DNA from: Desulfovibrio sp.
GTDB lineage: Bacteria; Desulfobacterota; Desulfovibrionia; Desulfovibrionales; Desulfovibrionaceae
Length of the DNA stretch: 34,171 nucleotides
NCBI GenBank assembly: GCA_031272405.1
Contig: JAISTW010000061.1
Location: 1 to 34,171, forward strand
Direction of reading: 5' to 3'
Every line of letters starts with the position of its first letter. Position 1 is the first letter of the stretch. Below the pieces are notes generated by a model. The model worked only from the letters and a program-made list of their open reading frames with translations, had not been told where the DNA came from and searched no databases. This document shows, one piece after another, positions 27,663-34,171 of this stretch. A program made the translations under genes and the position numbers.

Positions 27663-29168
27663 GTGCTGTTCAATTCGTATCCGTTCCTTTTCTGTTTTTT
27701 GCCCTTGCTGCTGCTGCTGTGGCGGGTTGTCGGCAGCACGGCGGGCGGGGGCTGCCTGGCTTTTGTGCTGCTGGCTTTTTCGCTCGTTTTTTATGGGTTG
27801 TCGGGCGCGCCCTTTCTGTTGCTGCTGCTGACGCTCGTCGCCGTGAACTATGCCTTTGGACAGGTTCTGGCCGAACAGGACGAGGTTTTCGCTTCCCGCA
27901 GGCGGCGTCTGAGCCGCAGGAACCTGTTTGCTCTGGCCCTGACGGTCAACATCCTGCCCCTGTTGTGGTTTAAATATTCCGGATTCCTGGCGCAGAATCT
28001 GTCGCTGCTTTTCGGCGGCGACTTGCGGTTCATCCCCCCGGGGTTGCCTTTGGGCATTTCGTTTTACACCTTCATACAGGTGGCCTGGCTGCTCGGCGTT
28101 TACAAACGCCGTTTCACCCCGGAGGGATTTTTTCGGCACGCGCTTTTTTCCTCCTGCTTCCCCTATGTCATTTCCGGCCCCATCGTGCGTTATGAGCAGA
28201 TCGGCAGCCAGTTTGACTCCCTGACCCTGCCTGATGCCGAAAGCACCGCCAAGGGCTTGAGCCTGTTCAGCATTGGGCTGGCCAAGAAGGTGCTGCTGGC
28301 CGACAGCTTGGCCGTGTATGCCAACGCCGTCTTCAATGCCGCAGAAAGCCATTTTCCCCTGAGCGGGGGGGAGGCGTGGCTTGGCTCCCTGTGCTATACT
28401 TTCCAACTGTATTTCGATTTCTCCGGCTATACGGATATGGCCCTGGGCATCGGCATGATGCTCGGCCTGCGGCTGCCGGAAAATTTTGATTCTCCCTACA
28501 AATCCACCGGCATCGTGGATTTCTGGCGGCGCTGGCACATCACTCTCGGTGCCTGGCTCAGGGATTGCCTGTATATTCCCTTTGGAGGCAACAGAGCCGG
28601 CCGCCTCAAACAATACCGCAATCTTTTTCTCACCATGTTCATCGGCGGCATCTGGCACGGGGCAGGCTGGACCTTCGTCATCTGGGGCGCCCTGCACGGC
28701 CTGATGTTGTGCGTCAACCATTTCTTCAAGTCAAAAATCAAGGGCAGCCCGGCGGAGAGGGCGCTCAGTTCCCTGCCGTGCCGCATCTTTTTCATCCTGC
28801 TGACCTTTGTCTGCATCAACGCCTGCTGGGTAGTCTTTCGCTCTCTGACCGTGCACGGCGCCATGAGCATGTATGCCGCCATGCTCCACGGGCCTTTCGC
28901 CGTCTCCGGCGCAGAAGGATGTTTGGCTGCCCTGCTCCCAAACAACTATTTCCTCGGCTGGCAGCCCTTTGCCCTGCTCGCGCTCAGCTTTGTCCTGGTC
29001 TGGGCTTTCCCCAATTCGCGGGAACTGCTGCGTGGCAGGGCCGACGGCTCGTCGCCGTGGCTCAGATGGAGTCCCTCCGCTCTCTGGGCAGGCGGACTGG
29101 CCGCGCTGGTCTTTGTCTGTCTGATTTTGGCGTCGCGCAAGTCCACATTTCTTTATTTTCAGTTTTAG
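27663..29168 (+). CDS. MBOAT-family O-acyltransferase (AlgI-like)
   Basis: This 501-residue polytopic membrane protein belongs to the AlgI/DltB branch of MBOAT proteins, which pass acyl (usually acetyl) groups across the inner membrane for transfer to polysaccharides or teichoic acids. The family blocks are present: LPLGISFYTFIQVAWLLGVYK, FDFSGYTDMALGIG, VDFWRRWHITLGAWLRDCLYIP with His292, and GGIWHGAGWTFVIWGALHG with His332. The GTG at 27663 has AGGAG upstream. The SGNH-type gene follows eight bases later, as in alginate and other acetylation loci. Confidence 0.93.
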   Translation: MLFNSYPFLFCFLPLLLLLWRVVGSTAGGGCLAFVLLAFSLVFYGLSGAPFLLLLLTLVAVNYAFGQVLAEQDEVFASRRRRLSRRNLFALALTVNILPLLWFKYSGFLAQNLSLLFGGDLRFIPPGLPLGISFYTFIQVAWLLGVYKRRFTPEGFFRHALFSSCFPYVISGPIVRYEQIGSQFDSLTLPDAESTAKGLSLFSIGLAKKVLLADSLAVYANAVFNAAESHFPLSGGEAWLGSLCYTFQLYFDFSGYTDMALGIGMMLGLRLPENFDSPYKSTGIVDFWRRWHITLGAWLRDCLYIPFGGNRAGRLKQYRNLFLTMFIGGIWHGAGWTFVIWGALHGLMLCVNHFFKSKIKGSPAERALSSLPCRIFFILLTFVCINACWVVFRSLTVHGAMSMYAAMLHGPFAVSGAEGCLAALLPNNYFLGWQPFALLALSFVLVWAFPNSRELLRGRADGSSPWLRWSPSALWAGGLAALVFVCLILASRKSTFLYFQF

Positions 29169-30388: not shown

Positions 30389-30394
30389 GTGACA

Positions 30395-31504
30395 ATGTTG
30401 ACATCTGTTTTGTTACGCCGGGTTTTCTCGGGTTTTCTCATCCTGTTTCTGGCCGCGTCCGCCTCCCCCGCGGCGACAAAGGACGCGCCGTCAAAAGCGC
30501 GCGGAACGGCCGCCGAAGCCCTGAGCGCCCATGAACGCGGGGATTTTGTCAAAGCCAGGGATATCTGGCAAAAATTGGCGGAAGCGGGCGACAGCCAGGC
30601 CATGAACAACCTCGGCGTGCTCTACGATCAGGGCAAGGGCCTGGAACAGGACACAGGCCGCGCCGTGTACTGGTTTGAAAAGGCGGCCCGCGCCGGCCAT
30701 TCCGCCGGCATGTGCAATTACGGGCGCATGCTGGAATCGGGCCGCGGCGTGGCCGAAAATCCGCAGGAGGCCGCCTTCTGGTTTGACAAGGCCGCCCGCG
30801 AAGGCCAGGCCGAGGCTCAGTACAATCTGGGGCGTTTGTACGAGCAGGGGCGCGGCGTCGAACAAGACGACAAGGCGGCGGCGGTCTGGTACAGCCGTGC
30901 GGCGGCCCAGCAGCAGGTGGAGGCTTTGGCGCGTTTGGGGCATATGCACCGGATGGGTCAGGGCGTGCCCAAAGACGTGTCCCGCGCCACGCTGCTCCTG
31001 TATGCCGCGGCCATGAACGGACATGCTCGAGCCATCCAGGAACTCGAAGAATTGTTCAAGGAGGGGGCAAAACGGCCGCCCGCCATGCTTTTTGGGCAAA
31101 AACTGGACGATACCGACCGTACCGCCATGCGGGCCGCCTTGCGCGCGGCCGGTCTGCCGGTGGTGCGTGAAGACGACGCCTTTATCTGCGATATCTACGA
31201 CGTGCGCCGTATGATCAGCGGCGCCGGGGAGATGGCAGCCTGCTACGCCCCCGGCAAGCCGTCCCCCCTGGGTTTTATAAAAATCGACTATGCCGCTTCA
31301 AAAGTCGGCGTGGCCAAAAACATCGTCCAGATGCTCAGTTCCCGTTTTGGGGAACCGTCCGCGGCAGAGGGCGGCGACGCGCACCTCTGGAATCTCGGCT
31401 CCGTTCTGGTCGCCACCCAGTATGTGCCCACGCACAAACTGTTGAGCCTTATGTACATGGTGCCTCGTACCTACTATTTGACCAGGCAGGAAGAGAGACC
31501 GTGA
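30395..31504 (+). CDS. Exported Sel1-repeat protein
   Basis: The 369 residues begin with a signal sequence (about 1-26). Four or five Sel1-type repeats of about 36 residues follow (about 40-205), for example AMNNLGVLYDQGKGLEQD and AQYNLGRLYEQGRGVEQD. A C-terminal domain of about 150 residues (YDVRRMISGAGEM and onwards) is not recognised. Sel1 repeats make a solenoid for protein contacts. AlgK, the alginate outer-membrane scaffold, is also Sel1-like, but AlgK is a lipoprotein and this protein has no lipobox. A GTG at 30389, directly after the upstream stop, is the alternative start. The stop overlaps the next GTG. Confidence 0.82.
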   Translation: MLTSVLLRRVFSGFLILFLAASASPAATKDAPSKARGTAAEALSAHERGDFVKARDIWQKLAEAGDSQAMNNLGVLYDQGKGLEQDTGRAVYWFEKAARAGHSAGMCNYGRMLESGRGVAENPQEAAFWFDKAAREGQAEAQYNLGRLYEQGRGVEQDDKAAAVWYSRAAAQQQVEALARLGHMHRMGQGVPKDVSRATLLLYAAAMNGHARAIQELEELFKEGAKRPPAMLFGQKLDDTDRTAMRAALRAAGLPVVREDDAFICDIYDVRRMISGAGEMAACYAPGKPSPLGFIKIDYAASKVGVAKNIVQMLSSRFGEPSAAEGGDAHLWNLGSVLVATQYVPTHKLLSLMYMVPRTYYLTRQEERP

Positions 31505-32898
31505 CTTCTGCCGACCGGCCCGCTTTCGCCGAACGCCTCGGATTTTCCCCGCGGGTTTTTGTGCTCTGCGTCGCTGACCTTCTCGCGCTCCTGTGCCCGG
31601 TCAGCCTGATTTTCGCGCTCAGAGCGGCATTCGGACAGGTCAGTCTGTCTCTGTATCTGCAGGTGTTCTCTTTGCTGCTGCTCGGCCCGTTGCTGGGCGC
31701 GCTCTCCGGCATTTACGGAACGGTTCCCCTGCCCCGTCCGCGTGAAATCAAGGCTCTTGTCATGTTGACCACGCTTTTGTACGGCATCATCCTGATGGTG
31801 CTTTTTCTTTCCCAGAGCGGGCAGGAGTATTCGCGTTTCATCATCGCCGGGGGATGGGCGACCACAATTTTCACCCTGCCGCTCCTGCGCGGAGCGGCCC
31901 GCCGTCTTTTTGCCCGAAAGCCCTGGTGGAGCCGGCCTCTGCTTATTCTGGACAAAAGCGACACAGGCCGCAACCTGTGGCATTACCTCAAACGCCATCC
32001 GGAATGCGGCCTTGCGCCGGTCAATATCCATTCTTTGCCGGATGACGCGGAGCAGGCGCGGGAACTGTTGGCCGCCGCCGCGGCAAGATATCCCGGCGCC
32101 ATTGCGCTGTTGCCGCACTGCCTCCCAAAACCGGACACCTCCGACCTCGTCAGGGAAGCCGGCCGCCTGTTCAGCGACATCATGGTGGCCCCGGCTCTTT
32201 GCGGCGGTTCTGATATGCATTGGCTCACCATATGCGATCTGGGGATCATGCCGACCCTCTGGATACGCCAGAATTTGAGCGACAAACGCCGGCTTTTCGT
32301 CAAACGGTGTATGGATGTCCTGATCTGCCTGCTCGGCCTGCCCGTGCTGTTGCCCATTGGCCTGGTACTCGCCTGCGCCATCAGATTGGACAGCCCCGGC
32401 CCGGCGCTGTACCGGCACAAACGTATCGGGCGCGGCGGCAGGGAAATCAGAATATACAAGTTTCGCACCATGGTGCTCAAAGCCGACGCCGCCCTCAGAG
32501 AATGCCTTGCCCGCGATGCGGCCCTGCGCGAAGAATGGAACAGTTTTCACAAGCTCAAGAACGACCCCCGTGTGACCAGGGTGGGCGCGTTTTTGCGCAA
32601 GACCAGTCTGGACGAGTTGCCGCAGCTCATCAATGTGCTGCAGGGGTCCATGAGCCTGGTAGGCCCACGGCCCATAGTGACGGCGGAAGTGAAAAAATAC
32701 GGCCCCGTGTATGAGGAGTACTGCCGGGTGCGTCCGGGCATAACCGGACTGTGGCAGGTGTCCGGGCGCAACGATACCAGCTATGCGGAACGCGTCGCCT
32801 ATGACGCCCACTATATCCGCAACTGGTCCGTATGGATGGATGTGTGGATTTTGGCAAGAACGGCGCCTGTGGCCCTTACCGGTTACGGCGCCTATTGA
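31501..32898 (+). CDS. WbaP-type polyprenyl-phosphate sugar-1-phosphate transferase
   Basis: WbaP-like enzymes start surface-glycan synthesis by moving a hexose 1-phosphate from a UDP-sugar to undecaprenyl phosphate. The 465 residues have four or five N-terminal membrane segments (about 18-125), a central Rossmann-like region, a further membrane helix (about 270-290), and the C-terminal catalytic bacterial-sugar-transferase domain. That domain contains [28 protein letters not shown] and [13 protein letters not shown]. The start is GTG, overlapping the Sel1 stop (GTGA). The sugar donor (galactose or glucose type) is not determined from sequence. Confidence 0.92.
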
Positions 32899-32922: not shown

Positions 32923-33432
32923 ATGACGAAAATGACGAAATTGCTGTTTCAATCTCTTCTTGTGTGCGCGTTCGCTTTCCTGGTCTTCGTCGGCAGCGCC
33001 GTCGCGGCCCAGCAGACTGTGCAGCCGCCGGCCCCGACGGTGAAGCCCGTCCCGGACAAGCCGGAAAAAGGCACGGACCGCGTCACGCTGGTGAGCGTGC
33101 AGCTGGAGGGGACAGACGGTTTGGGAGCGCGTTTGGGCACGCAACTGAAGGATCGTTTCAACCGCAGCAGCCTCTTCACGCTTACCGCCGAGGAAAAGGA
33201 CGCGCCGAAGCTGTTGCTGTTGCTCAGCACAACCCCCGAATTTCCGAGTCGTCCGGGCATAGGCTCCGTCTATTCCATTTGCTGGGTCTTCAGCCAGGGC
33301 AAGGGCTATCTCGGCTATCTGCTTGCCCGGGACTTGGGCACAGTGACGCCTGAAGACGTTGACGCCCTGACCGACAAGCTTGTGGAGCGTACGGACGGCG
33401 TGGCCGCCAAGTATGAGAATTTGTGGAGATAG
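32923..33432 (+). CDS. Exported protein of unknown function
   Basis: The 169-residue product has a signal peptide (about 6-28, ending GSAVAA) and a Pro-rich stretch (about 30-48). A domain of about 110 residues follows, including VSVQLEGTDGLGARLGTQLKDRFNRSS and LLLLLSTTPEFP. No family is recognised. The ATG has GGAGG upstream. It is the last gene of the glycan operon before a GC-rich hairpin. It may be periplasmic. The mature domain pairs a nucleotide-free mixed fold with one Cys, so no disulfide is expected. Confidence 0.7.
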   Translation: MTKMTKLLFQSLLVCAFAFLVFVGSAVAAQQTVQPPAPTVKPVPDKPEKGTDRVTLVSVQLEGTDGLGARLGTQLKDRFNRSSLFTLTAEEKDAPKLLLLLSTTPEFPSRPGIGSVYSICWVFSQGKGYLGYLLARDLGTVTPEDVDALTDKLVERTDGVAAKYENLWR

Positions 33433-33443
33433 GTTCAACGGGC

Positions 33444-33469
33444 CGCCCGGAGGACATGCCCTCCGGGCG
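33444..33469 (+). terminator. GC-rich hairpin after the exported-protein gene
   Basis: CGCCCGGAGG (33444-33453) and CCTCCGGGCG (33460-33469) form a perfect 10-bp stem around ACATGC. No T run follows, so it may be a weak terminator, a bidirectional mRNA-end structure or a protective hairpin. The following 120 bases are AT-richer and hold no other clear element. Confidence 0.45.
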
Positions 33470-33591
33470 CTCCCCCAACCCGGATGGAAATGTCGCGGAT
33501 AAAAAAATGTTCGCCATGCCCAGATATGGCGCTTTGTCATAGAAACTACACCTGTTCGTTGCTTCCATACAAAAAAACAGAAAATAACGCC

Positions 33592-33696
33592 ATGAAAGTC
33601 TTCCAGCGCTCCACCGCGCAAGCACATGCTGACCGTCTTATGAACGGCACGGCCTTGGCGCGTTCCATTTTCTACCTACCCCCCCCCGCAAAGTAG
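33592..33696 (+). other. Leader open frame ending at the C9 tract
   Basis: ATG 33592 opens a 34-codon frame (MKVFQRSTAQ...FYLPPPAK) that stops at TAG 33694-33696, just after the C9 run. The frame that encodes the FAD protein lies one base away. It has no strong ribosome site. An inner ATG at 33640 is also in frame. With one more C (or two fewer) this frame would read straight into [11 protein letters not shown]. Confidence 0.45.
33679..33687. repeat. Homopolymeric C9 tract
   Basis: Nine consecutive C (33679-33687) sit immediately before the first coding strand of the FAD-dependent gene. This is the longest G or C run in the window. The others reach seven, and lie inside frames that are intact. 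Confidence 0.85.
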
Positions 33697-33698
33697 GC

Positions 33699-34171
33699 GT
33701 GATCGGGGCCGGCCCTGCCGGGCTGACCGCCGCTTATATACTTCTCCAAAAAGGCCATGACGTTGTCCTGTTCGAGAAGAGCGATGCCGTCGGCGGCATG
33801 GCCAGGACCATTGAACTCTGGGGACAGCTGGTGGACCTGGGGCCGCACCGCTTTTTCAGCAGCGATCCGAGAGTCAACACAATCTGGCTGGAGGCCATCG
33901 GCAACGACTACAAGATGGTTTCAAGGCTCACGCGCATCTACTACAGAAAAACCTTCTTCGACTATCCGCTCAAGGCCTTCAACGCCCTCAGGGGCTTGGG
34001 CGTTTGGGAAGCCTCGCGCTGCATGCTCAGCTATCTGCATGCGAAACTCTTTCCGCAAAAGGACGAATCCTCTTTTGAAGCATGGGTGACAAACCGCTTC
34101 GGCGCGCGTTTGTTCTCCATCTTTTTCAAATCCTACAGTGAAAAACTCTGGGGCATTTCCTGCAGGGAACT
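33699..34171 (+). CDS. FAD-dependent amine oxidase / UDP-galactopyranose mutase-like protein, partial, N terminus out of frame
   Basis: The sequence to the window end encodes the dinucleotide-binding motif [15 protein letters not shown], then [29 protein letters not shown] and [13 protein letters not shown]. This is typical of the protoporphyrinogen-oxidase/UDP-galactopyranose-mutase-like FAD enzymes found in glycan loci. The first strand KVGVIGAG begins at 33690. No start codon exists in this frame between the upstream stop (33630-33632) and GTG 33699, which would cut off part of that strand. The frame is restored to ATG 33592 by one added C at the C9 tract. The 3' end lies outside the window. 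Confidence 0.7.

Follow-up and report, generated by a model that had tools for sequence, protein, structure and literature searches.

Slipped-strand mispairing in homopolymeric tracts drives phase variation in Campylobacter and Neisseria, and switching of this kind is best known from host-adapted pathogens. The mga gene of group A Streptococcus is reportedly subject to poly-cytidine phase variation by slippage as well, according to a title cited in PMC11868660. The locus described here resembles mga in the poly-C tract and, as proposed, in slippage; in contrast, the mga tract lies inside a regulator gene, whereas the present one is carried by a repeat and precedes the gene of a biosynthetic enzyme. 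Homopolymer-tract phase variation of inlA in Listeria and swrA in Bacillus is described in excerpts of PMC2831843, according to which an inlA allele with a broken run (A2GA4) is stable and in frame. The locus shares with these genes, and with those of Campylobacter and Neisseria, a pure homopolymer near a gene start and a frame break at the tract. Unlike them, it has the tract on a leader found in three copies, in place of a native start codon, and it is a candidate only. No homopolymer switching in Desulfovibrio appeared among the matches listed in our literature searches, whose scope mostly excluded subscription papers; in the excerpts of one Desulfovibrio phase-variation match (PMC12579266) the terms homopolymer and slipped are absent.

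The window analysed is the whole of contig C60 (34171 bp). Near its end, an uninterrupted run of nine C on the forward strand (33679-33687) lies at or before a gene start, and the reading frames differ on its two sides. The frame of ATG 33592 crosses the tract as CCC CCC CCC GCA AAG and ends at TAG 33694. The frame of an FAD-dependent enzyme, encoding [11 protein letters not shown], begins after a stop some 46 nt 5′ of the tract, has no ATG, GTG or TTG 5′ of GTG 33699, its first possible in-frame start, and runs to the contig end. Frame reading thus confirmed two claims of the original prediction, that the C run ends the upstream frame at TAG 33694 and that the FAD frame has no start of its own before GTG 33699. 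A third, that one C more or two fewer would join ATG 33592 or ATG 33640 to the FAD frame, holds as frame logic, a start in the leader being putative: no Shine-Dalgarno sequence or other ribosome site was found before either codon, and ATG 33640 is CTG in both other leader copies (contigs C47 and C49). The small leader ORF gave no Pfam match. Coordinates of the features are collected in Table 1.

Table 1. Features of the window on either side of the C tract
Feature	Coordinates	Strand	Basis
MBOAT O-acyltransferase	27663..29168	+	PF03062, E 8.8e-27
Sel1-repeat protein, perhaps AlgK-like	30389..31504	+	PF08238, E 1.9e-37
WbaP-type undecaprenyl-phosphate sugar transferase	31501..32898	+	TIGR03022, 450.7 bits, cut-off 403 exceeded
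ORF between wbaP-like gene and leader, no family matched	32923..33432	+	family searches without match
Inverted repeat with 13-nt arms, 5′ of leader	33444..33469	.	repeat search
Leader repeat (three genomic copies), C tract at 3′ end	33497..33692	+	identity to C47 and C49 copies
Small leader ORF, ATG to TAG	33592..33696	+	frame reading
Invariant 3′ leader block, ends in C tract and GCAAA	33641..33692	+	C60 versus C47 comparison
FAD-dependent oxidoreductase frame, PRK07208-like, cut by contig end	33690..34171	+	family match from 33690

A run of this length is unremarkable by itself. It is the only C or G run of at least nine in the window, and 49% of 200 first-order Markov imitations contained one or more. 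The genome has 20 C tracts of at least nine (19 in a second count, as one lies at a contig end), which falls within the range of 0 to 45 obtained with the identical pattern across the genus; an excess of C tracts in this genome was accordingly rejected. What stands out on sequence comparison is the position, at the start codon of close relatives.

The enzyme is PRK07208-like by its family matches. With its 157 aa, which cover roughly one third of the NF005548 model from its start, the FAD frame scored E 9e-65 and 219.1 bits, below the cut-off of 389 that applies to the whole protein; NAD_binding_8 was matched with E 1.5e-17; the best named homologue is 76% identical. The frame stays open over all 157 codons to the contig end, and a search for the FAD family in the same genome did not find the remainder of the gene in the assembly. 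In two Desulfovibrio relatives (L067, L068) the enzyme begins MKVGIIGAG where the tract ends here, and in two others (L065, L066) it begins a few residues earlier. Since the tract occupies the position of the start codon in close relatives, the simplest reading is a replacement of the enzyme's native start codon by the leader.

The original prediction had treated the tract as a feature of the FAD gene, and this part did not stand. The longest C or G run between −150 and +30 was at most 7 in 48/48 named homologues, so that none of the 48 had a run of eight or more, and 44 of them had an in-frame start within 12 codons; among the four closest genus homologues (L065-L068), 0/4 had a C or G run of at least eight within 300 nt. 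The tract belongs instead to the three-copy leader. Relatives that start without a C tract had been named in advance as the outcome that would speak against a switch, and such relatives are what we found; yet a tract borne by the leader explains its absence from them. Among 12 genus homologues read, one distant FAD homologue (L070, 40% identical) has a run of nine C about 99 nt upstream (G201:C1, ~183015-183024); this run precedes an in-frame stop and therefore cannot act through the reading frame.

We compared the three leader copies. The window copy is 82.7% identical over 202 bp to G000:C47:31219-31420 and 80.1% identical over 191 bp to G000:C49:1-191(-), and the C47 and C49 copies are 97.9% identical to each other over 192 bp. 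The tract has nine C in C60 and nine in C47; in C49 nine C extend up to the first base of the contig, giving a length of at least nine. Within the small ORF, C60 and C47 differ at 12 positions in the first 49 nt and at 0 in the next 47 nt, to the tract end, and from this uneven distribution the 3′ block appears to have been conserved or homogenised. All codon differences between these copies are nonsynonymous (8/8), which gives no indication that the small peptide is maintained as such, nor, from the same comparison, any sign of protein-level constraint on the leader ORF.

The copies differ in what surrounds them. At C49 the leader lies directly 3′ of a sugar-nucleotide dehydratase gene, which we read as rfbB-like, and its tract is cut by the contig end. 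Two of the three copies lie in glycan loci, on the wbaP side at C60 and on the rfbB-like side at C49. Behind the C47 copy come a short frame, a terminator-like hairpin and then a truncated ORF whose helix-turn-helix matches fall just short of the Pfam cut-offs; no long frame is fused to the tract of this copy. One leader frame at C47 (L042:11408-11664) crosses the hairpin, which resembles an intrinsic terminator, to the start of the next ORF, an attenuator-like arrangement.

The glycan setting claimed for the window was borne out, WbaP-type, MBOAT and Sel1-repeat genes adjoining the candidate gene (Table 1). The likeness of the Sel1-repeat protein to AlgK is to be read with the scores: NF038194 was matched with E 5.8e-12 but with 45 bits against a cut-off of 700.

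Searches beyond this genome returned no further leader copy. With the C47 copy as query and two candidates scored per genome, 287 other genomes of the family gave only matches of 25 bp and 21 bp, in a search of limited reach that did not list the C60 copy of this genome either. With the window copy as query and four candidates scored, 198 other family genomes gave none, and the same search listed all three copies of this genome. No copy was found in phage and plasmid records, nor by exact patterns of 21 bases in viral contigs and of 24 bases in contigs of species-representative genomes. A match in G203 with three mismatches to the leader pattern turned out to be unrelated and has no C tract. 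A mobile, MITE-like element was rejected for the C60 and C47 copies, the two tested: their ends do not form an inverted-repeat pair, and there are no target duplications. We also set aside a genus-wide CnGCAA motif, which occurs 5 times against 0 in the control in this genome but 23 times against 27 in the other 78 genomes, and a site with eleven C in G237, similar in look, that appeared unrelated. Outside long frames, this genome has a run of 13 C (L046, G000:C4:59607-59619) and one of 10 C (L059, G000:C46:1241-1250) with the common flanks TAC(n)GCAATT and a nearby GCAACT.

Other C runs of the genome provide the closest comparison. Contexts were read for 26 of its 31 C tracts of at least eight; those left out are runs of eight C at contigs C40, C43 and C62 and two at C69. 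Beside the window, two tracts, both in adhesin-like genes, are at most ten codons away from a start that has a ribosome site, and a long frame out of register follows each of them. The gene on contig C8 (L047, G000:C8:28000-33000) has a pure run of nine C and that on contig C17 (L206, G000:C17:1-1500) a pure run of eight, with only an internal ATG; each is out of frame. A further start-proximal tract, on contig C27, is a pure run of ten C in a gene cut by the contig end. The adhesin-like genes, which we take to resemble LapA, gave no Pfam match. Their likeness to the FAD locus lies in the pure run of eight or nine C near the start and the broken frame; in contrast to it, those on C8 and C17 have clear GGAG ribosome sites and carry the tract in their own N terminus. 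The leader had no significant match to their upstream regions.

We searched for the adhesin N terminus in 79 genomes of the genus and obtained a match in 47. The distance from ATG to the first family residue is 27 nt at 29/29 loci of relatives (one per genome, 29 genomes) and 26 nt on contig C8. The downstream frame there reaches 1971 aa in the search listing, which argues against long decay of the gene. Among nine adhesin N termini of this genome, those with a pure run of at least eight are in frame from the conserved ATG in 0/2 cases and those with no pure run in 7/7 (Fisher p 0.028, for a comparison chosen after the data were seen); of the seven, the frame on C52 has only 139 aa and in another the in-frame start is a TTG or else an ATG farther away. 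In the C17 subfamily, the members on C26, C80 and C52 have a 10-nt run broken by a T and are in frame, as is the A2GA4 allele of Listeria inlA in the excerpts of PMC2831843. Tract lengths of eight, nine and ten among the adhesin genes, together with the T-broken runs of paralogues, suggest that pure C runs by gene starts have changed length here, and on this sequence evidence slippage of such runs appears to have happened in this lineage. By our reading, the frame shift needed at C17 is of the opposite sense to that at contigs C8 and C60, as random slippage would give.

Across the genus, a Shine-Dalgarno sequence followed by ATG and a run of eight C is commoner than in a reversed control, a control that ignores the co-occurrence of ribosome sites and ATG, and we use the pattern for its three sites in this genome only. 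These are on contigs C8, C17 and C27; lacking such a ribosome site, the window locus does not fit the pattern. Elsewhere in the genus, near-identical gene starts carry eight C in G114 (L222) and nine C in G213 (L223) shortly 3′ of the ATG, and G214, G215, G216, G218, G258 and G259 (including L226 and L227) share a near-identical gene start that runs into eight C.

The mechanism proposed for the FAD gene has a leader of about 190 bp in front of it, with the C tract in place of the relatives' start codon. Slipped-strand mispairing in the run would bring the leader ORF and the enzyme into or out of a common frame; at nine C the two frames do not meet, and the assembled state would be OFF. Translation would start in the leader, the length of the tract would vary in the population, and the enzyme would alter a surface polysaccharide. 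We put the chances at about even that the FAD gene, a candidate simple-sequence-repeat phase-variation locus, is controlled by slippage. The anatomy of the locus and the parallel with this genome's adhesin-like genes make a good case for this reading. Three things weaken it: the complete copies have tracts of equal length, the leader lacks a ribosome site, and the C47 copy stands alone. The phase variability originally predicted is partly supported, with the frames, the glycan neighbours and the adhesin frame breaks on its side, and the tract-free homologues and the lack of a ribosome site against it. Free slippage should scatter lengths, so the values of nine, nine and at least nine in the leader copies count against it, as does the failure to find a sigma-70-like promoter near the tract. 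The truncated tract at C49 and the upstream run in G201 weigh in opposite directions and leave our estimate unchanged. We regard a further step as possible but rather unlikely, namely that the leader is a portable phase-variation unit, made up of 5′ flank, start and C tract, whose copies, on reaching new sites, bring the recipient gene under slippage control.

The competing explanation that survives best is possible, if less than probable: the leader would be a dispersed repeat with a static end of nine C, spread by duplication or gene conversion, whose arrival removed the start and left the gene disrupted or weakly expressed from GTG 33699. The nine C in both complete copies together with the identical 3′ block fit this account, as do the small ORF without a ribosome site and the C47 copy, which stands alone before its terminator-like hairpin and truncated ORF with weak helix-turn-helix matches. 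A long-dead gene would, however, not be expected to keep 157 codons free of stops and a good family match, and two other genes of the genome have their frames broken at pure C runs.

A base-calling or assembly error in the homopolymer, which would produce a false frame break, is unlikely. The assembly is in 80 contigs (2.2 Mb, 80.65% complete), homopolymers attract errors, and on contigs C27, C33 and C49 a C tract lies no more than two bases from a contig end. The excerpts of PMC8808543 estimate the share of genes with homopolymer errors in one metagenomic data set at up to 1%, but place spurious Illumina indels especially above 14 bp. Against an error, the separate contigs C60 and C47 both have nine C and C49 at least nine, and the run on C17 is two shorter than in its subfamily. 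A mistaken run length can explain neither an enzyme without its own start codon nor why 7/7 adhesin paralogues that have no pure run keep their frame. Contig ends at C tracts were not counted as a sign of mixed lengths, as C49 and C27 also lie in repeats.

It is also quite improbable that the frames are joined during expression, by RNA polymerase or ribosome slippage on the C run, with the gene partly on at nine C. Slippage is plausible on a sequence of the type CCC CCC CCC, and the small ORF ends right 3′ of it. However, the shift required differs in sense among the three frame-broken genes, so that no single programmed shift can serve them all, and the RNA has no unusual structure. A structured RNA at the leader was rejected with a fold z-score of 0.03 and no Rfam family above its gathering score, the only match being one of 12.3 bits on the other strand against a gathering score of 37. 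An action of the tract on transcription or attenuation, through promoter spacing, as known for C tracts of Bordetella fim genes, or through the terminator behind the C47 copy, rather than through the frame, is very improbable: the C47 leader frame that crosses its hairpin and the G201 run upstream of an in-frame stop, for which only such a role is open, speak for it, but no promoter-like pair was found near the tract and the two terminator-like sites found lie 5′ of it, not 3′. Even jointly, slippage during expression and a transcriptional role are not likely.

If slippage does control these genes, homopolymer switching at several Desulfovibrio surface genes would extend this mechanism to a broader range of bacteria. 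If the leader has moved between loci, switches could be gained by copying a ready-made leader, as opposed to a tract grown in place.

Further repeats were noted in the course of the analysis. Contig C33 carries two tandem flagellin-like genes (L057:2601-4730, G000:C33) that are 84.5% identical over 950 bp, of which only the first was checked against Pfam. In G241:C29 (L105, L117), runs of 9-10 G and C face each other at the centre of an inverted repeat. On contig C52, a run of 12 C (L060, G000:C52:55832-55843) lies at the 3′ end of a long frame with at least 852 aa upstream, whose end looks response-regulator-like by eye.
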